Below are positions 2,630 through 12,490 of a DNA stretch of 64,000 nt, piece by piece. Position numbers and translations under genes: made by a program. The first letter of the stretch is position 1. The number at the start of each line of letters is the position of its first letter. Under the pieces are notes generated by a model. It worked only from the letters and a program-made list of their open reading frames with translations. It was not told the origin of the DNA and made no database searches. This DNA comes from Ruegeria sp. YS9 (GTDB taxonomy: Bacteria; Pseudomonadota; Alphaproteobacteria; Rhodobacterales; Rhodobacteraceae). The DNA is taken from assembly GCF_024628725.1 (NCBI RefSeq), contig NZ_CP102409.1, forward strand, positions 405,001 to 469,000. Direction: 5' to 3'.

Positions 2630-2759
2630 CTAGAAAAAGCCCACAATCAAAATTCTCTCTTACGATATCGAACTCATTCGACCCCGGCCTCAAGTAGCGT
2701 AAGCAACAGGCCGAAAAACGGTCTCAAGTAGCCGAATAGGCGGTAGACCACCAAAGTGT

Positions 2760-2842
<83 letters not shown>

Positions 2843-2863
2843 CCTGCATGATTACAACACACT

Positions 2864-2881
2864 AGCGCCCCAAGGGGCGCT
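2864..2881 (+). terminator. Perfect GC palindrome after tRNA-fMet, possible terminator
   Basis: AGCGCCCC, AA, GGGGCGCT forms an 8-bp perfect stem 28 bp beyond the tRNA. The following bases (CTTGGCGTTT) make only a weak U-tract, so intrinsic termination is uncertain. Because it lies inside the island, it could stop rRNA operon transcription from running into the antisense island genes; this is inference. Confidence 0.4.
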
Positions 2882-2906
2882 CTTGGCGTTTGGGACGTTT
2901 GGCCTC

Positions 2907-2925
2907 GGTGCTACAACGGTGCTAC
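2907..2925 (+). repeat. Two GGTGCTAC repeats near the left island end
   Basis: GGTGCTAC occurs at 2907-2914 and 2918-2925, exactly 11 bp apart, about one helical turn. The same octamer occurs three times near the right end (11835-11872), in the same orientation. Position and spacing suggest arm-type binding sites of the integrase or of an excision factor. Confidence 0.5.
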
Positions 2926-3015
2926 GCTGTGGGGCAAACTTCAAATACCTCAACGTAGCGACACCGACAGTCGCTGACGCCGAACCTTACCAAACAAAGA
3001 AAACTAACGCGCGTC

Positions 3016-3043
3016 CACCGTCAGTGCTGTCAGCACCGTCAGC
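3016..3043 (+). repeat. Triple CYGTCAG array, left copy
   Basis: CCGTCAG, CTGTCAG and CCGTCAG follow each other with a 9-bp period. A closely related array (22 of 28 positions identical) lies in the opposite orientation at 9434-9461 in a non-coding stretch of the island. It looks like a protein-binding array; the binding protein is unknown. Confidence 0.45.
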
Positions 3044-3143
3044 CAATAGAAAGTTTGCCGTCTGTATCCCTTGAAGGTCAGCTTGGAGCCCTTAGTGCGC
3101 ATTATTCCGTCCCAAAGAGATTCGCCCTTACGGCGAGACAAGT

Positions 3144-4799
3144 TCAGCCGTGAGGCATCCCGGCCTCTTCCATGGCGGTAAGCCAGCGTTCCAGAGCGCC
3201 GGAGGCATTCCACATCCTGGTTTCCATGTCTCTTACCCGCGCGACGGTCCAGTCCGGGTTCTCTGAAAGGTAGTTGGCCATCGCTAGTGCCGCAGCGTTT
3301 TCGTCGCCAACGCAATGGTGGATGGCCGCGAGGAGCTTATTGGCCGCGGTTGGCATTGAGGGCACTGACTTGAATGCGTCCAGGGCCTTGTCGCACTCTC
3401 CTTTCTGCCAAAGCGCCCAGGCCTTGTTCCATTGCAAGTCAAAGTGCTTGAGCGGATCAATGCGTTCGAGATTTGCAAGTGTCTGCAAGGCCTCGTCCGT
3501 CTTGCCCATGTATATTTGAGAAACCGCGAGCCCATTGCCAACGATCGTCGACGAAGGGTTCAATTCGATCCCACGCTGAAAGGCACGTTGCGCGTCTTCG
3601 ACTTCGCCATTGAACATCAGCGCCCGTCCGAGGGCATGGTAAGCGAGGAAATTGTTTGGATCGAGCTCGACGCCACGACGGGCCAGATTGTACATCCGTT
3701 CACGAAGTGCCGACTCATCGCCGTCGACCCATCCGTAATGGAGGCCGATACGCAACGACAGGGCTTGGCCCAAAAACCCCCACGCAGAGTCGGGATAGTT
3801 CCGTATGGATTTCTCCTGTTCCTCGATATTGGTCAGGAGGTTTTCGCGGGTAAAGCTGCGCATGATCCGGCTTTGTGCCGCATTAGAGATCATTAGGGCG
3901 CTGACATCCCCGGAGGTCATGCTGGCCTCGGCGGTGTCAATCACACTTGTCCCAACGGCCAGGGCAATCTTTCGGCTGATTTCACTGTTGGCCTCCAGCA
4001 TCGCACTTAGAGGAACGTCAATCTCGTCCGCCCAGATATGAGCCTCTGTGGCACCCTCGATCAGTTGGGCTGTGATCTTTAATCGAGAGCCGTTGTACTG
4101 CTGGCTTCCTTCAAGAACAAAATCGGCTCCAAGCGCCTCAGTGATTTCTGCAATCCCTTGCGGCGAATCGCGAAACTGGAAACTGGAGCGGCGGGAGATG
4201 ACGGTCATCTGCGGAAACCGCGCCAATGCAGTTATAATGTTCTCGCTTATGGCGTCACTCAAGAAACCAGTGTGTGGTGCAAAGGAGAAATCTTCGAAGG
4301 GCAGCACCGCAACCACAGGTGCATGGACCGTGTCGTCAGAGCGCGCCAAAACATAGGCGCCGATCAGTGCTGCAAGCATTAAAACGGCCACCAACAGTAA
4401 GGAAATAGGTAGATTCAGCAATCCCACGTTTGCGGCGTCCGGGACGGGCAGAATTAGCCTGTAACCTTGACGCGGAACAGTCTCGACAAGGCGTTTTTCA
4501 GAATCGCCCACGACACGCCGAATCTCGGCAATGCATTGCGCAACGCTGTCGGCTGCAACGGCTCGGCCCGACCAGACCTCGTCGATCAGCGCTTCGCGCG
4601 ATACTGTCCTGCCTTGGTTTTCCGCCAATGCCTTGAGCACTTCACGGGACTGGTGCCGCAGCTCGGCTTCATTTCCCTCCAAGTCGTAAATCCGTCCGGT
4701 GGCCGGATCGACCTTCACCATTCCAAGGCGGATTTCAGAAGATTTCAAGTTATTTCGTTTGGCAAAACGCAGTATCTCGCCCTCCAGTTGGACTATCAC
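3144..4799 (-). CDS. Membrane-anchored ToxR/CadC-like regulator with TolB-like and TPR regions
   Basis: A 551-residue island cargo protein. Residues about 20-115 form an OmpR/ToxR-type winged helix (RQGYRL near its end). Residues about 127-150 are one hydrophobic membrane helix (LLLVAVLMLAALIGAYVLA). Next comes a TolB-N-like region that begins VVAVLPFEDFS, and the C-terminal third holds TPR-like helices (for example LDPNNFLAYHALGRALMFNG). This layout is common in alphaproteobacterial transcription regulators often labelled adenylate-cyclase-like, but no cyclase domain is present. The start is uncertain; a later one would still keep the winged helix. It is divergent from the lyase-like gene at 4884 across 84 bp, so it is the likely regulator of that gene. 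Confidence 0.75.
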   Translation of the reverse strand: MIVQLEGEILRFAKRNNLKSSEIRLGMVKVDPATGRIYDLEGNEAELRHQSREVLKALAENQGRTVSREALIDEVWSGRAVAADSVAQCIAEIRRVVGDSEKRLVETVPRQGYRLILPVPDAANVGLLNLPISLLLVAVLMLAALIGAYVLARSDDTVHAPVVAVLPFEDFSFAPHTGFLSDAISENIITALARFPQMTVISRRSSFQFRDSPQGIAEITEALGADFVLEGSQQYNGSRLKITAQLIEGATEAHIWADEIDVPLSAMLEANSEISRKIALAVGTSVIDTAEASMTSGDVSALMISNAAQSRIMRSFTRENLLTNIEEQEKSIRNYPDSAWGFLGQALSLRIGLHYGWVDGDESALRERMYNLARRGVELDPNNFLAYHALGRALMFNGEVEDAQRAFQRGIELNPSSTIVGNGLAVSQIYMGKTDEALQTLANLERIDPLKHFDLQWNKAWALWQKGECDKALDAFKSVPSMPTAANKLLAAIHHCVGDENAAALAMANYLSENPDWTVARVRDMETRMWNASGALERWLTAMEEAGMPHG

Positions 4800-4883
4800 C
4801 CACGGGCGTCAGGTCCATATTCCAAAAGACGCCCTTCAGAAACTGGGAGGGGCACCAACCTCTCCCTAGATGGAGAATAGCTT

Positions 4884-5621
4884 ATGAAATGCTCGGCGAG
4901 AATAGCGAGACTTCCCTTGTTCGGAACGGCGCGGGCGATTGCTCCGCCTCGGATTCTCGCAATCATTGCAGCAGTAGCCATCTCCAGTCCTGCAATTGCC
5001 AATAGCTTTGACCTCAGCACGCCGCGCGAGAATGCGCCCCTTCGCCAATCCGACGGAAGTGAAACATTTCAGCTACGTCCGGGCGAGTGCAGCGACCTTG
5101 AATACTTCTCCGACGAATTGCAGATCAGCACCTCCGATTGCGGACGCTCACGGAACAGGATCGAGTACTTTGAGACATCCACGTCGAGAGCCGGAGATCG
5201 GCGTTTGTACGAGTGGGAAATCCTCATTCCGGAAGACTTTAGCTACAATGCACTCAACGCGCGGTTGACCGCCGGCCAATTCGAGACTGGCACCGATATG
5301 CTTTATGGTTTCGAACTGAACAACGATGGCTACACGTTCCGCGCCAAGGACTGCATTTCCGCGGAGGATTTCGGAGAATGGCACAAGGTCTCAGTGCGCA
5401 TCCAATACGATTCAACGCCACGCAAATCCCTCAAGGATCAGACCCCCGGTGTTTTTGTCGTCGAATGCAACGGTGAGGTGATCTCGGACTCAACCGGCAG
5501 ACCCAACATTACCGAAGGTGGTGAAGTGCAATTCAGATATGGTCTATTTGGCGCCAAGGATATCCCTGCCACGGACAATGTCTCTGTTTCGTTTCGGAAC
5601 GTCCGAGTGTCGGACTGGTAA
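4884..5621 (+). CDS. Secreted polysaccharide-lyase-like protein (heparin lyase I / PL20-like fold)
   Basis: A 245-residue protein with an N-terminal signal peptide (hydrophobic ILAIIAAVAI, probable cleavage after SSPAIA). The mature part resembles the jelly-roll lyase family annotated as heparin lyase I or glucuronan lyase: RRLYEWEILIPEDF, a DMLYGFELNN strand, and FGEWHKVSVRIQYD. Family assignment is by pattern only, and catalytic residues were not confirmed. It would act in the periplasm or outside the cell on an acidic polysaccharide. It is divergently transcribed from the ToxR-like regulator and lies at the left end of the island, the typical position for cargo. An alternative is a carbohydrate-binding protein without enzyme activity. 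Confidence 0.6.
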   Translation: MKCSARIARLPLFGTARAIAPPRILAIIAAVAISSPAIANSFDLSTPRENAPLRQSDGSETFQLRPGECSDLEYFSDELQISTSDCGRSRNRIEYFETSTSRAGDRRLYEWEILIPEDFSYNALNARLTAGQFETGTDMLYGFELNNDGYTFRAKDCISAEDFGEWHKVSVRIQYDSTPRKSLKDQTPGVFVVECNGEVISDSTGRPNITEGGEVQFRYGLFGAKDIPATDNVSVSFRNVRVSDW

Positions 5622-5828
5622 GACTCGGCAGCTTGGCGGAACCGATATTTTAATCTTCAGAGTTTTCACAACTCGGCGTGGTTTACATCGCGTGTCGGGA
5701 ATCCGATGGCGGCTTTGTCCGCGTAGCAGACGCGAGCCCACCCCCGGCATCCGCAACGGCAAGCACAAACAAAAAACGCCCGACCCAAGGAATCGAGCGC
5801 GTTAGCCAAAAAATTGTTGAGCGAACTT

Positions 5829-7970
5829 TCAGCGATTGCTCAATTCAATCACCCGCATCCCGGCCTTTCCTTCACGGCTGAACGCGATGTTCACGCCCTG
5901 TCGCCGCAAGACAGGTTGTACCCGTCGCAGCGCCGCGCCAAACCGTGCCTCGTTGCGCGGAAAACTGTGGCTGTCCTCTGTCAGTGCCGGGAAACGATCC
6001 CGCAAGGTTTGCTTCAGCTCGGTTGCGGTGCCGCTCCAATGCTGCCGCCCTTCCATTAATGAAAGGATCGCCAGCGCGACCGGGTTGGCCTCAACAGCGG
6101 CTTGGTCACTGCGCGCGCGATTGGCCGCGTAGGAGTCCAGAAACGCGCCCTGAGACCATCCAAGGGAGCCTTCGGCAGCAACCACCCATTTAGCGAAGTC
6201 TGCCATCCTAGGGGCTTCTGAGAGGCTCACTGAGTCAATCCGGCCCAAGGCGCAGGACACCGCGTCCAACAGAGCGCCCAGAATATAGGGCTTGGCCTTG
6301 GCAAAATCGCGGTTAAACGCGCCCAAGGTTTTGCGCCTACCGGGTGGGATCACCGGCAGATGAACGCCAATGGCGCGATCCGCCAGATCAGGTCGCGCCG
6401 CCAGATCGGGAATACCGTTCAGCAAACAGGGCCGCGTCGCGTTGAACAATACCTCGTCGCTGTCAGTGTGCAGCTTGCGGGTACCAAATCCGCCACCCGT
6501 AGCAATCCGGCAGAACGCATCTGCCATCATTGGGCGGATGGTCGAGAGATTGTCAAAGCTCAGAACGTGGTTGTGCATGGCAGCAATCACCAAATCCTGT
6601 TCGGAATTGGGCGTGCTGCGCGTGCTTGGGCTGGCCGGGTCAATCAGATCGCGCAGGGTTTGCGCGGTGGTGCTTTTGGCGCTGCCCTGTTCACCTGACA
6701 GGATCAGGATAGGGTAGGGGCCTTTGGGGTGGAAACATCCCAGAACCCATGCCACCAGCATGCGGAAATCATCTTCGCTGTCGACATTCAGAAAATCGCG
6801 CAGAAACTCGATGCCATTCTCATGCCGTTCCGGCACTGGCAACGCCTGCATGGCTGGTGAGCGTCGAAACCGCGCGGGCGGGTGGCTGACCACCTGCCAG
6901 CCCTCGGACGTGATCGCCACAGCCTGCCAATCGGTGTCGCCAAGGTCGAGATAGACCGTGCGCCCGATCGAGGCGATGCGGCTGGACACCGGATAGGTCT
7001 CGCCTTCGAACCGCGCCACCCCTTCCAGCATCCGGCGTTTGTCATCCAGCGCGGCATTGGAGGGCGCTTTGCCTTCGGCCTTGTAATGGGCATAGGCCAG
7101 ATAGTTGCGGAAGGTCGATGATCCGACAGGCCAGTGCTCAAAGTGACCCTTGGCCCGTAACGTTACATAGGGCTCACCCTGCGGCGTGTTCCAAAGCTCA
7201 AGCCCATCCACCAGCGCCGCACTGCTATCGTTACGTATAGGTGCAGGTTCATCCCTATGTATAGGTAACGTATACGGGTCGGGGTTTTCCTTATGATACA
7301 TAGGGGGATGCGGGTCATTGGCGGCAGGCCGAACCTTACTTGTAAGGTAGGCGGCAGTTGCATCCGGCAAATCACACGCAACGCTGTTTATCAGGGCGTC
7401 AATCTCGCCTAGTCCCCAACCTGCGGCAATGGCGTCGGCCACGTCCCAGCCCCTATGTATTGGTTTAGGGATCAGACTCGATGAATCATGCGCTTGAATC
7501 AGTGCGTCACTGATCGGAAGGATCAGAGGTGTCGCCCTATGTAATGTAACGAGCTCTTCGGCCAGTTTGGCGGCATAGCTCTGTCCCGGCTCATCGTGGT
7601 CAGGCCAGATAATGACAGTACGGCCTGCCAGCGGTGACAGGTCAGTTTTTGCCAGCGCCTTGCTGCCGCCAAAGCTGGTAGAGGCTAGATACCCCAAGCC
7701 CGTCAGAACATCGGCACACTTCTCCCCTTCAACCCAGATCACCGGCTGATCCGGGTTCGCCTGGGCGATCCGGTCCAGATGATAGACCGGGCGCAACTGG
7801 GGTGCTTTCCATGCGTCCTTGGTCACGTCGTAGGGCAGAAAGAACTTGCCCCTGCCGTTGCCCTCATAGCGATTGGCGACGAGCACAGGCGCACCCGTTC
7901 TGCTGCGATAAACATGCTGAGTGTCAGCGACACCGGCTGTCGGGTGGCGAAGGTCGGGCAGCGCGCTCAT
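5829..7970 (-). CDS. Island primase-helicase: TOPRIM domain plus P-loop ATPase
   Basis: A 713-residue replication protein of the island. A TOPRIM-like domain is visible with Glu81 in VEGEKCADVL and the DHDEPGQ motif at 124-130. The ATPase part has a Walker A GEQGSAKST at 426-434, a Walker B-like segment near HVLSFDNLS (about 468-476) and a sensor-like RPCLLNGI near 513-520. This matches primase-helicase proteins of P4-type satellites and prophages, which prime and unwind DNA at their own origin. It overlaps the upstream 104-residue gene by ATGA, so the two are co-translated. The linker between TOPRIM and ATPase (residues about 140-270) is encoded by DNA packed with iteron-like repeats. Confidence 0.85.
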   Translation of the reverse strand: MSALPDLRHPTAGVADTQHVYRSRTGAPVLVANRYEGNGRGKFFLPYDVTKDAWKAPQLRPVYHLDRIAQANPDQPVIWVEGEKCADVLTGLGYLASTSFGGSKALAKTDLSPLAGRTVIIWPDHDEPGQSYAAKLAEELVTLHRATPLILPISDALIQAHDSSSLIPKPIHRGWDVADAIAAGWGLGEIDALINSVACDLPDATAAYLTSKVRPAANDPHPPMYHKENPDPYTLPIHRDEPAPIRNDSSAALVDGLELWNTPQGEPYVTLRAKGHFEHWPVGSSTFRNYLAYAHYKAEGKAPSNAALDDKRRMLEGVARFEGETYPVSSRIASIGRTVYLDLGDTDWQAVAITSEGWQVVSHPPARFRRSPAMQALPVPERHENGIEFLRDFLNVDSEDDFRMLVAWVLGCFHPKGPYPILILSGEQGSAKSTTAQTLRDLIDPASPSTRSTPNSEQDLVIAAMHNHVLSFDNLSTIRPMMADAFCRIATGGGFGTRKLHTDSDEVLFNATRPCLLNGIPDLAARPDLADRAIGVHLPVIPPGRRKTLGAFNRDFAKAKPYILGALLDAVSCALGRIDSVSLSEAPRMADFAKWVVAAEGSLGWSQGAFLDSYAANRARSDQAAVEANPVALAILSLMEGRQHWSGTATELKQTLRDRFPALTEDSHSFPRNEARFGAALRRVQPVLRRQGVNIAFSREGKAGMRVIELSNR
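7157..7550. repeat. Iteron-like cluster inside the primase gene (candidate island origin)
   Basis: The 9-mer TACATAGGG occurs five times in 380 bp: plus orientation at 7164-7172 and 7297-7305, reverse orientation at 7253-7261, 7451-7459 and 7535-7543. Related GTATAGG elements lie at 7235-7241 and 7259-7265, and GTTAC/GTAAC boxes lie next to several copies, including the palindrome GTAACGTTAC at 7157-7166. The copies encode different residues (LHR/IHR, PMY, PYV) because they fall in different frames and orientations, so protein repetition does not explain them. A further TACATAGG lies at 8567-8574. By analogy with satellites whose primase-helicase binds iterons, this may be the replication origin. 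Confidence 0.55.
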
Positions 7971-8281
7971 GCCTGCACCCCCAGACGTTGCGCCAGTGCA
8001 CGCGCGGCCTGTCCTTGCTGGACCCCGTTCAGATAGGCAAAGAGGCTGATGGCATCCCCGCCTTTGTCATCTGTGGCAAAGTCTGCCCACAACCCGCTGT
8101 CGAGATTGATCCGAAACGAACCCCGCGAGCGATCTGCACGGGTGGGGTTCAGCGCCACCCATTCGCGGCCAATGATCCGGCCATCCGGCAACCATTCGGC
8201 CAGAAGGCTATGCAGATTGATCCGGGCCAGTTCAGCAATGGCCGCGAATTCGATAGGCTTCCAACTACCAGTCATTTGCAA
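7967..8281 (-). CDS. Small primase N-terminal-like protein (CHC2-like fold without cysteines)
   Basis: A 104-residue protein containing NPTRADRSRGSF, GLWADFATDDKGGDAISLF and a C-terminal AARALAQRLG, the pattern of the DnaG-type zinc-binding module that precedes TOPRIM in primases. No cysteines are present, so metal binding is unlikely. It is encoded immediately upstream of the TOPRIM-ATPase gene with an ATGA overlap, so the primase appears split into two proteins that probably act together. It overlaps the alpA-like gene upstream by 17 bp, indicating a single operon alpA - primase N - primase-helicase. Confidence 0.72.
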   Translation of the reverse strand: MQMTGSWKPIEFAAIAELARINLHSLLAEWLPDGRIIGREWVALNPTRADRSRGSFRINLDSGLWADFATDDKGGDAISLFAYLNGVQQGQAARALAQRLGVQA

Positions 8282-8474
8282 CCACCTCCTGAAGACGCGC
8301 GATCTCGAACGCTTCTACATCTCCCATGCGATAGCGGACCAAGCGGCCAACTTTGACATAAGCCAGCGGGTAGCGTTTGGTGCAACGCCATGTGGCAAGG
8401 GTGGTTGTGGACACGCCGAGGCGTTCCGCGACTTGCTCGGGTTTGAGCAGGGTGTCTGCCTGTTTTGCGATCAT
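8265..8474 (-). CDS. AlpA/excisionase-family helix-turn-helix regulator
   Basis: A 69-residue MerR-like HTH protein: LKPEQVAERLGVSTTTLATW, a wing region, then YVKVGRLVRYRMGDVEAF, the standard AlpA/Xis-family pattern. In satellites such proteins activate or repress the replication and excision genes and can act as recombination directionality factors. The ATG at 8474 was chosen because GGAGG lies 5 bases upstream; the open frame continues to a TTG at 8489 without a good ribosome site. It is the first gene of the minus-strand replication operon, with a palindrome-rich region directly upstream. Confidence 0.85.
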   Translation of the reverse strand: MIAKQADTLLKPEQVAERLGVSTTTLATWRCTKRYPLAYVKVGRLVRYRMGDVEAFEIARLQEVVANDW

Positions 8475-8562
8475 GATAACCTCCATCAATTTAGATCGAT
8501 GAAGGGAAACCTAGAGAGCGATTGGGCAGGCCGAAACGCGTGAAGCAGGAAAGAAAAACTGC

Positions 8563-8607
8563 TTCCTACATAGGAAAACATGCCGGTTAACTGCCACGTA
8601 ATGTGGC
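8563..8607 (-). promoter_or_regulatory. Palindromes in the alpA upstream region
   Basis: Two inverted repeats lie 90-135 bp upstream of the alpA start: TTCCTACATAGGAA at 8563-8576 (TTCCTA and TAGGAA around CA) and GCCAC-GTAAT-GTGGC at 8593-8607. The first contains TACATAGG, the core of the repeat found in the primase gene. They are candidate operators of the replication operon; the bound protein is not known. Confidence 0.45.
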
Positions 8608-8617
8608 GAAAATATGT

Positions 8618-9394
8618 CTATATCACCCGCATTACCGTGACCACACGCGCGCGCGTCAGGTCCGGATCAAGTTTTTGGCCGATCAAATGAATCACATCTA
8701 CAGCCGTTGCTTTGTTTTGCTTTGTGGCCGGATCGTAGCGGCCCGCATTAAAGGGGCGCATGGCGTTGCGCTCCCAATAGGGGCGAAAGGCGCGGGCTAA
8801 CGCCGCAATCGGCTGGCTTTCGGTTTTCTTCGGCCTGCGCGACCAACGATCCAGATCGGCCTCATGATAGCTGCTTGGGGTGTCATGCTCGCCCAAAGCA
8901 ACCGTTTCTGCGGTCGCCTTATGCAACAGTTCGAGAAACGCCGCGACATGGCCGACAGGATCGCCGGGGCCAAATGCACCTTCGATCAGGTTTGCAATTC
9001 CGGCGGCGCTTGGGTCGGCTGATCGGGCTTGTTTTTCCAGCGCGTCGGCCAGTTTCCCGGAACAGTTTGGTGAAGCCTGCACACGGGCAAGGTCCACTAG
9101 TACCGGCTCAAGCTTGGCAGACAATGCGGACAGGCGGCGGTATTCCATTGCCCCCGGTTTGCGTCGGCGCATTTTGCGGCGTTCGCGGACGTAGGCTCGC
9201 GCCGCTGCCTCAACCCCTTTGCGCAGTTCGTCAACATTGGCTTTGGGTCCCATCAGCATCTCAAGTTCAAGCATGAACCGGGCATCGTAGAGGCGGTGTA
9301 ACTCAGACAGGAAACCGTGGCCCACCATGAGGCGCTGCCACGGTGCAGTTGGTCTTGCTTCGATGTCGGGGAGGGTGTTGTCAGCCTGTTCCAT
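8618..9394 (-). CDS. Island protein of unknown function, 258 aa
   Basis: A charged, mostly helical 258-residue protein with no motif I can assign. It is rich in Arg and Lys around residues 67-85 (YVRERRKMRRRKPG) and has no signal peptide or membrane helix. Proteins of this kind are often found next to alpA and primase genes in alphaproteobacterial islands. It precedes alpA on the same strand with about 143 bp between them, so it may be a separate transcript. A role in replication control or interaction with a helper phage is possible but unsupported. Confidence 0.65.
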   Translation of the reverse strand: MEQADNTLPDIEARPTAPWQRLMVGHGFLSELHRLYDARFMLELEMLMGPKANVDELRKGVEAAARAYVRERRKMRRRKPGAMEYRRLSALSAKLEPVLVDLARVQASPNCSGKLADALEKQARSADPSAAGIANLIEGAFGPGDPVGHVAAFLELLHKATAETVALGEHDTPSSYHEADLDRWSRRPKKTESQPIAALARAFRPYWERNAMRPFNAGRYDPATKQNKATAVDVIHLIGQKLDPDLTRARVVTVMRVI

Positions 9395-9705
9395 TATGCC
9401 GCTTGTTCAGGAAAACCAAGTCAAACGCCAGAGGCTGACAGGACTGACAGTGCAGACGGTGAAACTAGGGGTGGTCTGCCTGAAGCGATCTTTCCTGAAT
9501 TAGTAGGTCTTTGGTGAATGCGAACAGCTCAGCCTTGGTTGGTTCTAGCAGGAAGGCTACACATCAGTCGTTCGCTGCTAGCGCAGGACTGGGCCTCAAC
9601 GTCGGCGACAATGCACAGGAAGCGGGCTTTGAATCAAAGATGTAGTGATTTGGAGCCGTGGACAGCGGCTATGCGGGCAAAGCTGCCATTTGTGTCGTCC
9701 AACCG
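9395..9705. other. Non-coding stretch inside the island
   Basis: I see no convincing gene in these 311 bases. The stretch holds the CYGTCAG array at 9434-9461 and presumably the promoter of the 258-residue protein that starts at 9394. It separates the replication block from the right-hand part of the island. Confidence 0.5.
9434..9461 (-). repeat. Triple CYGTCAG-type array, right copy
   Basis: Read on the minus strand it contains CCGTCTG, CTGTCAG and CTGTCAG with a 9-bp period. It matches the array at 3016-3043 at 22 of 28 positions, in inverted orientation. It lies 40 bp upstream of the 258-residue gene and could be an operator or part of an origin. Confidence 0.45.
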
Positions 9706-9912
9706 CTATATTATTTTGTCCAAGTTTCCGCGTGTTGCCGCGATCTTCTGAGCATTAGATGTTTCTTTCACGCCCTCAGTAGTCAGGCGTTTCTGCTGTC
9801 TTGCTATCTCAGCCCGAGATTCGACAAAACGCTCGAAAAACCAAGTGATTAGGGCAGGAAAACCAAAACGCAGCAGTAGAATGAGTACGGCGGGTGGGAT
9901 TATATATTCCAT
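9706..9912 (-). CDS. Possible small membrane protein of the island
   Basis: A 68-residue frame beginning MEYIIPPAVLILLLRFGFPA. It has one strong membrane helix (about residues 4-25) followed by a basic, coiled-coil-like tail (FVESRAEIARQQKRLT). The ATG at 9912 is preferred on composition; a TTG at 9978 would add 22 residues. No good ribosome site is seen for either, so the gene is plausible, not certain. Function unknown; small membrane proteins in satellites can be involved in superinfection exclusion or lysis, but nothing here shows that. Confidence 0.4.
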   Translation of the reverse strand: MEYIIPPAVLILLLRFGFPALITWFFERFVESRAEIARQQKRLTTEGVKETSNAQKIAATRGNLDKII

Positions 9913-10154
9913 CCAATAAACATCGTTCTTACCAACGAAGAATTCAACCAAACTGCGAAATTGAAACGGACAAGCCAATTCTCAGGGGGCGTACACTGGG
10001 CTCTAAAAGCTGTCATCCGCATTGTTTGGTCGCTCATCAGGTATTCCAACGTCGACTGTGCGGACAAAACCGACTTTGGATTGTAAGGAAGATTGCCCTT
10101 CGGTAGTCTTGGATTATTGTCCTGATATCCATCTCAAAGGGTAACTGTCTGAGT

Positions 10155-10625
10155 ATGAAACAGATAATTTGGCCAATGGCACTACTGATGCTTATTGCGT
10201 TAAGCACTCAAACGGCGGCAAGTTTTCCGCCAATAATCCGCTTTATCGAACAACTGCTTGACCACCCAATCTGCGGATTTCCCAAGGCTTCAAAAATTGA
10301 AACCGCCAAATTAGCTTATTTCACATTGTACCGCGATCCAAGCGACTGCAATGGCAGCGGATCTGGCCGGTTCTGCAAAACACTAATTCGCGACAATATC
10401 AGTGGAAGCTGCCGTGAATACGGCCATACAAAGGGCCACATAGGAGTCGATGACAATATTCCACCAACCGTGACCCCACCGAAGGGGTGGGCACCATCTG
10501 TCACCGGTTCCTGGCCATTGTATTTAGTGGATTCTGAACGTGGCAGCATATTGTATGAGCAGCCCCAAATTTATATTCGGGTACCCGATAAAGCGGAACT
10601 GAAAGAGGAAGTATCCTTCAAGTAA
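10155..10625 (+). CDS. Secreted cysteine-containing protein of unknown function
   Basis: A 156-residue protein with a clear signal peptide (MKQIIWPMALLMLIALSTQTAA). The mature part has four cysteines (in HPICGF, SDCNGS, GRFCKT and GSCREY) that could form two disulfides in the periplasm. I do not recognise the family. The base composition is more AT-rich than the surrounding core genes, which agrees with island cargo. It runs toward the integrase, with only 36 bp between their 3' ends. Confidence 0.6.
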   Translation: MKQIIWPMALLMLIALSTQTAASFPPIIRFIEQLLDHPICGFPKASKIETAKLAYFTLYRDPSDCNGSGSGRFCKTLIRDNISGSCREYGHTKGHIGVDDNIPPTVTPPKGWAPSVTGSWPLYLVDSERGSILYEQPQIYIRVPDKAELKEEVSFK

Positions 10626-10661
10626 GTTCGTATGGTCAGGTCGCAAAGGGCTCTTTCCGCC

Positions 10662-11813
10662 CTAGGTAGACTTTGAAAACATCAACTCTGTCGCCTTGTC
10701 CACACTCTCCCTGACCGGGTCTAGGTTTAACCTTGCGTAGATTGCTGTGGATTGTTGGGACCGATGCCCGAGAGACTTACCAATAATGTATCCATTGGCC
10801 CCCGTTGCCGCCTGATAGCTGCCCAAGGTGCGACGCAGGTCATGAATGCGCAGGTCTTCAATCCCTGCCTCTTTCAGGATCCGGCTCCAAGCTTTCTTGG
10901 GATCGGCAAGGTGGCCGCTTTTGCCCGAGCCTTCAAAAACGTAGGGGCTGTCTGACTTGAGCTTTCGTTCGATTAGCAACTCAACTGCCTGTTGGGGGAG
11001 ATGAACCGTCAACGGGTCTGCATTCTTGGTTTCTTCGATCCGCCATGTGGCCGATGTGAAGTTGATTTCTTTCCACATCATTGCCAGCGTGTTTGACTTT
11101 CGTGCCCCTGTCAGAAGGGAAACCATAAAGAAATCTCTTGCGGCCTCGTTGGGCTCCTTGGCCAATGCCTCAAAGAAGCGAGGCAGTTCGTCAGGCTGCA
11201 AGAATCTGTCGCGGCTTTGTTCCCGAAACTTTTTGATACCAACAGCGGGGTTCACACCCTTCCACCCCCATTCAATGGCCTTGTTGAATATGGAGCGAAT
11301 ACGTTCAAGCAAACGGTTGGCCTGATACAAGCCGTTGTCCTTGCCGATCTTTGCATGAAGCCTTTCTACCTCAGCCCGATCAATGCTGGAAATCTTTCTG
11401 CGGAACCAATGCGACAGATATTTGTTTACTTCCCGCTCGTCATATATCCACGACTTCTTATGCACCTTGGAATACTTGTCCATGTATTCGGTAAAAAGCG
11501 CCCCAAAGGTCATTTCATCCCGAATGGCCTTTTTCTCTTTCTGAGGGTTCGCCCCAGACGCGATGCCGCCCTTGGCCTTTGCTGCCGCCTTGCGGGCCTG
11601 TTCCACGGTCATGTCAGGAAATTTGCCAAGCAACAGGCGTTCGGGTCGCCCTTCGATCCGTTTGTACAGGTAAAAGCTCTTCGATCCTGCCGCCGTCACA
11701 GCCAAAACCAATCCCGCTTCCCGTTCGTCATAGTAGTAGTCCCGTGATCCTTTCTTGGCGGCAGGGGCTTTCGAAAGGGCTGCTTTGGTGAAGTTCAAAC
11801 GGTGACTGGCCAC
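10662..11813 (-). CDS. Tyrosine-type site-specific integrase
   Basis: A 383-residue phage-type integrase that would insert the island into tRNA-fMet. An N-terminal DUF4102-like arm-binding region (SRDYYYDEREAGLVLAVTA, GRPERLLLGKFPDMT) is followed by a core-binding domain and the catalytic domain with Arg in TGARKSNTL, the HDLR motif in IHDLRRTLGS, His in LGHRSQQST and the Tyr nucleophile in AIYARL. All expected catalytic residues are present, so it should be active. I chose GTG at 11813, which has AAAGGA six bases upstream; an ATG at 11894 lacks a ribosome site and would translate through the GGTGCTAC repeats. It sits next to the right att repeat. Confidence 0.93.
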   Translation of the reverse strand: MASHRLNFTKAALSKAPAAKKGSRDYYYDEREAGLVLAVTAAGSKSFYLYKRIEGRPERLLLGKFPDMTVEQARKAAAKAKGGIASGANPQKEKKAIRDEMTFGALFTEYMDKYSKVHKKSWIYDEREVNKYLSHWFRRKISSIDRAEVERLHAKIGKDNGLYQANRLLERIRSIFNKAIEWGWKGVNPAVGIKKFREQSRDRFLQPDELPRFFEALAKEPNEAARDFFMVSLLTGARKSNTLAMMWKEINFTSATWRIEETKNADPLTVHLPQQAVELLIERKLKSDSPYVFEGSGKSGHLADPKKAWSRILKEAGIEDLRIHDLRRTLGSYQAATGANGYIIGKSLGHRSQQSTAIYARLNLDPVRESVDKATELMFSKST

Positions 11814-11834
11814 GGTATATCCTTTAGGTGTTTT

Positions 11835-11872
11835 GGTGCTACCGAAAGTTGACGGTGCTACACTGGTGCTAC
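11835..11872 (+). repeat. Three GGTGCTAC repeats near the right island end
   Basis: GGTGCTAC occurs at 11835-11842, 11854-11861 and 11865-11872; the last two are 11 bp apart as in the left-end pair at 2907-2925. They lie directly upstream of the integrase start and about 120 bp from the right att core. They could serve both as arm-type integrase sites and as autoregulatory operators of int. Confidence 0.5.
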
Positions 11873-11990
11873 ACCGGAGAGCAATTTTGGACAATGTGGA
11901 GAATGCTTACAACAAGCTAAAGCATAGGTAACATATTGATAAATCATGCAAGAAATAACCTTAGCAAATAACAGCAAACATACGACAATG

Positions 11991-12044
11991 AGGCTCATAA
12001 CCTGAAGGTCGTAGGTTCAAATCCTACTCCCGCAACCAAAAATA
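11991..12044 (+). repeat. attR-type direct repeat (partial tRNA-fMet copy)
   Basis: This 54-bp copy is identical to 2789-2842: the anticodon arm, variable region, T arm and CCA end of tRNA-fMet without the 5' half. It is not a working tRNA. It marks the right boundary of the island and the original downstream flank of the tRNA gene. Confidence 0.92.
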
Positions 12045-12175
12045 ACAGCCAAATATCAAACTCTTAGCATCGAATAACGCGAGGCTCTTTGCATTGCGCA
12101 AACTCAACTGGAAGCACTGTGGAAGCAAACTGCGCGCAAAATGGGTGTGGTGAACGCGCAACAGGGGCACCCCAG

Positions 12176-12490
12176 TCAGTCTTTTCTGCCGACGTTTTCT
12201 TCGAACGCAACCTTGAAAGCCGCCTGTTTCTCGGGGCCAGCCTCGGTTTGATACTTGGATTTCCATTCGTCCATCGTCATGCCGTAGAAAATCTCGCGGG
12301 CTTCATCCTTGCCCAGTTCGATTCCCTTTTCGTTTGCCGCTTCCTGATACCAGCGCGACAAACAGTTGCGGCAAAACCCGGCGAGGTTCATCATGTCGAT
12401 GTTCTGAACGTCCGTGCGGTCTTCCATCAGGTGCTTTTGCAACCGGCGAAATGCGGCAGCCTGAAGTTCAATTTCGGTTTGCTTGTCCAT
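12176..12490 (-). CDS. DUF1244 family protein
   Basis: A 104-residue soluble protein with the DUF1244 signature NMMNLAGFCRNCLSRWY-type segment (here MMNLAGFCRNCLSRWYQEA) and a Lys/Glu-rich C-terminus. The family is widespread in alphaproteobacteria and has no established biochemical role; the CRNC pair might bind a metal. It is the first host gene to the right of the island and stands apart from its neighbours. Confidence 0.85.
   Translation of the reverse strand: MDKQTEIELQAAAFRRLQKHLMEDRTDVQNIDMMNLAGFCRNCLSRWYQEAANEKGIELGKDEAREIFYGMTMDEWKSKYQTEAGPEKQAAFKVAFEENVGRKD

Follow-up and report, generated by a model that had tools for sequence, protein, structure and literature searches.

Why would a replication gene carry a cluster of short, identical DNA repeats among its codons? 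In the 64-kb stretch of the Ruegeria sp. YS9 genome analyzed here, which as a whole is called the window, five copies of the 9-mer TACATAGGG lie within rep, the primase-helicase gene of a small integrative island. A preliminary description of this DNA had read the cluster as the origin of the island, located within its own replication gene. The cluster is real, it is a feature of the DNA level, and it recurs in the island family. In the following, the internal sites are told apart from the likely origin, and the proteins that might read them are compared.

The island and its replication gene

The island of this window (WIN) is bounded by direct repeats of 54 bp, as is typical for an integrative island with a tyrosine integrase. 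The left repeat, attL (2789-2842, plus strand), covers a tRNA-Met gene (cat; probably initiator) in its 3′ half, and attR (11991-12044, plus strand) is an exact copy of it. Repeats of GGTGCTAC, which are probable integrase arm sites, are found near both island ends, at 2907-2925 on the left and at 11835, 11854 and 11865 (within 11835-11872) on the right; they also occur upstream of rep in several relatives. Read from the right, the minus strand encodes the tyrosine integrase (10662-11894), orf258 (8618-9394), an alpA-like HTH_17/excisionase-like protein (8265-8489), pri (7967-8281) and rep (5829-7970). The integrase probably starts further downstream than the listed TTG, because the GGTGCTAC repeats fall into its first codons. 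The interval from integrase to orf258 holds a further ORF. An ORF at 10155-10625, counted among the cargo, has a signal-peptide-like start and is without PHROG match. orf258 adjoins int in the relatives, like iolg of PICMIs, and the AlphaFold model of its product has a mean pLDDT of 60.5. The pri ORF overlaps rep and encodes 104 amino acids with weak similarity to the N-terminus of DnaG. Between rep and the left end, the island carries as cargo a winged-helix/TPR regulator (3144-4799, minus strand) and a polysaccharide-lyase-like protein (4884-5621, plus strand).

Rep has 713 residues and a predicted C-terminal winged helix. It gave no Pfam match at an E-value of 0.001 and no match in a sequence search of the PDB; primase matches were obtained from PHROGs for the N-terminal part and, below cut-off, from NCBIfam. 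Its AlphaFold model (mean pLDDT 79) contains a predicted disordered linker of residues 199-252, corresponding to window positions 7215-7376, and a C-terminal part that resembles a winged helix. A Foldseek search with the model returned NrS-1, the PriRep protein of SaPI5 (7ola, TM-score by target up to 0.55) and the Rep protein of SaPIbov1 (8tch). The island resembles SaPI/PICI elements in these structural matches and in its set of integrase, alpA-like, pri and rep genes, and differs from them in the lack of a PDB sequence match, in the extra lineage-specific sites inside rep and in its Rhodobacteraceae hosts. The origin of PICIs adjoins rep, as the candidate origin array usually does in the relatives.

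The order of int, alpA and primase/rep is that of PICIs and PICMIs alike. Small size and the order int, unknown gene, alpA, (small gene) and primase are shared with the PICMIs of Vibrionaceae (PMC10803314). Unlike PICMIs, the island uses a tRNA-Met site instead of a fis site and has no known helper phage. With no Pfam match, Rep also gives no hit to DUF3987 or DUF5906, by which the PICMI model recognizes the primase.

A repeat cluster in rep and in its relatives

The window contains five exact copies of TACATAGGG, at 7164 (+), 7253 (−), 7297 (+), 7451 (−) and 7535 (−), all within 380 bp of rep, compared to an expectation of 0.12 copies in 64 kb and a maximum of one copy in 100 shuffles. The whole-genome count (4,297,788 bases) gave 11 copies, the five in rep and six scattered singly, and no second cluster of the exact 9-mer. 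Because the repeats are partly coding, nulls were also generated by synonymous shuffling with the protein kept. The best 9-mer count per 400 nt of rep, five, was not reached by any of 2000 gene-wide synonymous shuffles (maximum of three) or by any of 4000 shuffles that drew on local codon pools (maximum of four, in two shuffles).

Related GTTAC elements are found around the five copies, and the cluster of TACATAGGG and GTTAC-type sites as a whole extends from 7154 to 7552. The copy at 7164-7172 (+) lies inside CCCGTAACGTTACATAGGG (7154-7172), with the coding strand reading CCC TAT GTA (PYV), and is followed by the related element CGTTACGTATAGGT at 7229-7242 (+). The next site, CGTATACGTTACCTATACATAGGG (7253-7276, −), contains a copy of TACATAGGG that encodes IHR, and for the copy at 7297-7305 (+) the coding strand reads CCT ATG TAT (PMY). 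A palindrome, CCTTACTTGTAAGG, at 7334-7347 is not conserved in the related island L042. The copy at 7451-7459 (−) encodes IHR directly ahead of a conserved GWD, and the last site, CGTTACATTACATAGGG (7535-7551, −), includes a copy that encodes LHR.

The preliminary description was right about five exact 9-mers in both orientations with related elements nearby, and about a chance cluster being very unlikely. It had also stated that the copies fall in different frames and encode different residues. All three frames are indeed used; the three minus-strand copies, however, fall into a common frame and yield [L/I]HR in each case, which leaves only the two plus-strand copies with clearly different residues. 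Its placement of the cluster in a linker applies to two of the five copies (7253 and 7297), which lie within the predicted disordered residues 199-252, whereas the copies at 7451 and 7535 belong to the last codons of the folded N-terminal primase part and that at 7164 to the first codons of the folded part that follows. A 9-mer common throughout the genome, which it had named as evidence against its view, was not found, the 11 copies making TACATAGGG rare.

Counting the own genome, matches were present in 24 of 394 genomes of the family, 23 of 390 of the order and 9 of 54 of the genus. A scan of genome contigs was used with its best 80 of 305 relatives, and a scan of viral contigs (IMG/VR) gave 24 relatives with identities of at most 45%. 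Several Rhodobacteraceae islands carry a cluster in the same region of rep in a lineage-specific spelling. The internal motif is CCTATGTAAGG in L046, L055, L056 and L058, ACGTTACGTA in L048, L049, L050, L064 and L065, CCCTATAGGG in L061, and CCCCGTGCAAA in L047 and L063; the site consensus sequences were hand-chosen from repeats within single elements, and the motif types were assigned by the author. With these hand-chosen consensus sequences, 14 elements have three to six merged sites in a region of 620 nt, and the rest of the rep gene has zero to four sites in 15 elements, overlapping matches being unmerged there. The preliminary description had counted an absence of the repeats from similar islands against itself. 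In this simple form such an absence was not observed: the cluster is kept at the same place in several homologous rep genes, but its letters differ by lineage.

A consensus-free comparison was made by counting 8-mer pairs against 200 gene-wide synonymous shuffles per element, leaving out L044, L045 and L060 with their broken or partial genes. All 200 shuffles were exceeded, with the best segment over the cluster region, in WIN, L046, L047, L049, L050, L055, L061, L063 and L064, and L042 reached a p-value of 0.005. The test was not significant for L043, L051, L053, L054, L056, L057, L058, L062 and L066, and for L048 and L052 the best segment lay elsewhere in rep. L048, L056 and L058 still have sites by consensus. 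L059 and L065 were significant, with the internal motif not being the clear cause.

The sites are also better conserved than their surroundings. Consensus-defined sites were more identical than the remaining gene in all eight pairs compared, several of which share an element; between WIN and L042, 43 of 45 site positions are identical versus 1252 of 1443 in the rest of the gene. The sharpest pair is L046 and L055, where two sites are identical at 31 of 32 nt and their surroundings at 88 of 158 (p = 1.4e-6). The same comparison gave 31/32 versus 91/158 for L046 and L056, 29/32 versus 97/158 for L046 and L058, and 30/32 versus 119/158 for L055 and L058. Flanks that are just 56% identical between L046 and L055 argue against recent gene conversion. 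At unchanged residues, codons were more often identical in sites, weakly so with single-pair p-values of 0.016 to 0.22, and an unbiased mask of 8-mer repeats gave p < 0.05 for codon conservation in only two of 14 pairs. The synonymous nulls, the respelled clusters at the same position and the conservation of sites over flanks support the earlier claim that selection acts on the DNA.

Separate arrays and the likelier origin

Iteron-like arrays of a second kind were found outside the cluster. They consist either of CTGACRRTG units (CTGAC-type) or of CTGTCCGC units (GTCCGC-type) and were present in 26 of the 28 loci with examined 3′ flank, WIN counted, mostly soon after the rep stop codon and in two opposed halves. 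The 28 loci do not count L072 and more distant ones and do not include L067 and L095; L050 and L068 end before the array position. Seventeen of the 26 arrays were called by a 3-copy rule, those of L055, L057, L058, L062 and L065 by eye, and those of L042, L043, L045 and L060 by a looser 2-copy rule, the weakest being L042, whose two units lie about 1.5 kb past the rep stop on the 3′ side. L070 has an array of a different type, and in the examined 3′ flank of L069 no array was seen.

The array type follows the end of Rep. In all 25 readable C-termini, an ending of GxxGxR goes with a CTGAC-type array (15 loci) and an ending of G[KH][DE]R[RAK]R with a GTCCGC-type array (10 loci), which is a concordance and not a proof because the loci are related sequences. 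The Rep protein of WIN ends with GKAGMR, and both WIN arrays are of the expected type. One of them, CCGTCAGTGCTGTCAGCACCGTCAGCC (3018-3044), has a spacing of 9 nt and corresponds to the array that follows rep on its 3′ side in the relatives; it is located beyond the cargo and near attL, not directly 3′ of rep. The other, GGCTGACAGGACTGACAGTGCAGACGGTG (9433-9461), lies upstream of orf258. The CTGAC arrays are adjacent and opposed in compact relatives and split to two distant places in the WIN subgroup, and L045 has the same two-place arrangement with arrays at 4460 and 8215.

The array at 3018-3044 is the best origin candidate of WIN, and replication more likely starts at such a separate CTGACRRTG array, which would be read by the winged helix of Rep, than at the internal sites. 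A replication element located 3′ of the replication gene is also seen in pRN1, whose origin element, a stem-loop of 100 nt, lies just 3′ of the primase-helicase gene (PMC4234260). The sequence of the pRN1 stem-loop is poorly conserved, whereas the islands use short repeated units. The replication of PLE is treated in PMC7145576.

With a better candidate array at hand, the reading of the internal cluster as an origin is displaced. We consider it unlikely that the cluster is the replication origin, true or accessory, inside the initiator gene. Its precedent is phage lambda, whose ori lies inside gene O (PMC5043065), and, as in lambda, a replication gene contains repeated sites of initiator type among its codons, here in both orientations and partly in the disordered linker. 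The distant L070 (940-2877) carries GGTCGGTCGGGTCGG ahead of the ATPase, which matches the unit of its own 3′ array, so that both places share a unit. Moreover, elements and their nearest Rep relatives agree in motif type in 12 of 13 cases, both by ATPase and by C-terminus, as relatedness alone would also give. Unlike lambda, however, the islands have a second array outside the gene, in 26 of the 28 loci and with a type following the C-terminus of Rep. The internal sites are irregularly spaced (84, 154, 44 and 89 nt) and of mixed orientation and thus lack the regular tandem spacing of iteron-type origins, several relatives were not significant in the repeat test, and the internal motif can change while Rep does not: L046 and L063 are 92% identical in the C-terminal region, but their motifs differ. 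The origin proposed by the preliminary description is therefore not the best reading of the cluster.

Among more distant loci, the strongest repeat segment starts 560-830 nt after Walker A in 35 of 68 (family-wise p ≤ 0.01). The five loci inspected, L072, L088, L093, L103 and L113, have iteron-like arrays ahead of the stop codon, which are therefore translated. These arrays of distant relatives are probably origin iterons inside the 3′ coding end.

Possible readers and roles of the internal sites

Our tentative explanation, which we regard as possible and as the best reading, is that the cluster consists of operator-like control sites inside rep for a putative reader. The repeats go beyond the needs of the protein, keep a constant position with a lineage-specific spelling, are more conserved than their flanks and in some islands have promoter-side copies; from this pattern we infer the binding of a protein and repression by it, and any identity given to the protein is likewise conjectural. 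A sequence-specific DNA-binding factor would bind the sites, and selection on the DNA, over and above the protein, would keep them inside rep. A site for the same factor may also be present upstream of alpA-pri-rep in about three lineages. Its likeliest role would be control of the replication operon, with the intragenic operators repressing or roadblocking rep, or looping or handcuffing to the promoter site. As an outcome, the integrated island might be kept silent and its copy number limited.

Copies on the promoter side were found in a subset of the islands. An element's own motif occurs within 180 nt upstream of alpA in six of 14 elements versus 0.38 expected. These six cases correspond to about three independent lineages (WIN/L042, L055/L058 and L049), with a weak two-mismatch case in L063; the copy is missing in the other eight elements, L046 and L056 among them. 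Motifs of another type matched upstream of alpA in 13 of 146 combinations, in part because the motif types resemble each other. In WIN, the 128-bp gap between orf258 and alpA contains the operator-like palindrome TTCCTACATAGGAA (8563-8576), the core of which, TCCTACATAGGA, occurs a single time in the genome at zero mismatches, at 8564. Promoter gap and linker were also compared by their best local matches, with a permutation p-value of 3.5e-4 over 23 elements; the comparison was noisy, with the own rank going down to 18 of 23, and does not count among the main evidence. A site inside the gene combined with a palindromic site at the promoter is known from lac O2-type intragenic operators and from the autoregulation of iteron plasmids. 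The islands are alike in this combination and differ in having several internal sites whose spelling varies among relatives.

To compare candidate readers, we asked how often the nearest neighbor of an island protein shares the motif type. This was the case for Int in 10 of 12, ORF258 in 7 of 12, AlpA and Pri in 10 of 13 each, and the N-terminal and middle parts of Rep in 11 of 13, next to the 12 of 13 given above for the ATPase and C-terminus of Rep. Such agreement is what relatedness alone would give, and the argument rests on the exceptions. L046 and L063, with motifs that differ, are 94% identical in the ATPase as well, and the ATPases of L055 and L061 have 89% identity, yet the motifs of these two islands are different. 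L046 and L055 are only 62% identical in the ATPase, 38% in the C-terminal region and 20% in ORF258, yet have their motif in common, as do L046 and L056 at a C-terminal identity of 37%. Three candidates did not hold up. The recognition helix of AlpA is nearly the same across motif types. ORF258 was rejected since the proteins of L055 and L056, which share the motif of L046, are 20% and 26% identical to that of L046. The pair L046/L063 speaks against the winged helix of Rep as reader of the internal motif. In the nearest-neighbor comparison, the case of L046 fits no island protein as reader.

L046, L055 and L056 are three coexisting islands of one Loktanella salsilacus genome and comprise two Rep and array types. 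In this 4.1-Mb genome, the 11-mer CCTATGTAAGG has seven exact copies, all in the three islands; every rep gene contains two of them, and the seventh lies upstream of the alpA gene of L055. This one genome, with three islands, two Rep types and one motif, is the main basis for reading the sites as an address tag with a role in activation, immunity or packaging, recognized from outside the island core by a helper phage, a factor of the host or some other resident element. We regard this as improbable. It is equally doubtful that the spelling of the tag follows the host or helper and not an island protein, drifting in concert as a docking signal, e.g., for a helper-phage protein in activation or packaging. 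Such a tag would account for co-resident islands with different initiators sharing one spelling and for an island with a near-identical initiator in another host having another. Evidence against a host-wide tag comes from L044 and L045, two islands of one genome with different motifs by eye, both genes being frame-broken, and from L046 and L056, in which the promoter-side copy is missing. The exact 9-mer has no other cluster in the genome of the window. A helper phage is not known, and relatives from IMG/VR do not exceed 45% identity.

It is quite improbable that the selected feature is instead a single-strand or mRNA structure formed by inverted copies. Compared to 25 synonymous shuffles, the minimum free energy of the region had a negative z-score in 14 of 16 elements (WIN −1.95, L046 −2.32, L065 −3.2). 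The z-score was near zero, however, in L042 (−0.13), L048 (0.57) and L055 (0.17), it was equally negative in L057 and L059, two elements lacking a clear motif, and an Rfam scan of 2700-12200 gave the tRNA only. A functionless coincidence, brought about by rare codons or by recombination in a linker that tolerates change, would suit a quickly varying region in which three of the five copies encode the same [L/I]HR residues, but is extremely unlikely given the synonymous-shuffle nulls, the reappearance of clusters at this position in another spelling and the conservation of sites within diverged flanks.

Returning to operator-like control sites in rep as the tentatively preferred explanation, the family offers a general caution, namely that repeats within a replication gene are not necessarily its origin. 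In this family of small marine islands, a fixed spot in the replication gene keeps DNA signals beneath the protein code that are respelled in concert, and these internal signals can be told apart from the likely origin. Knowing which factor reads them would explain how islands of this kind remain silent, how several can share a cell or how they recognize a helper.
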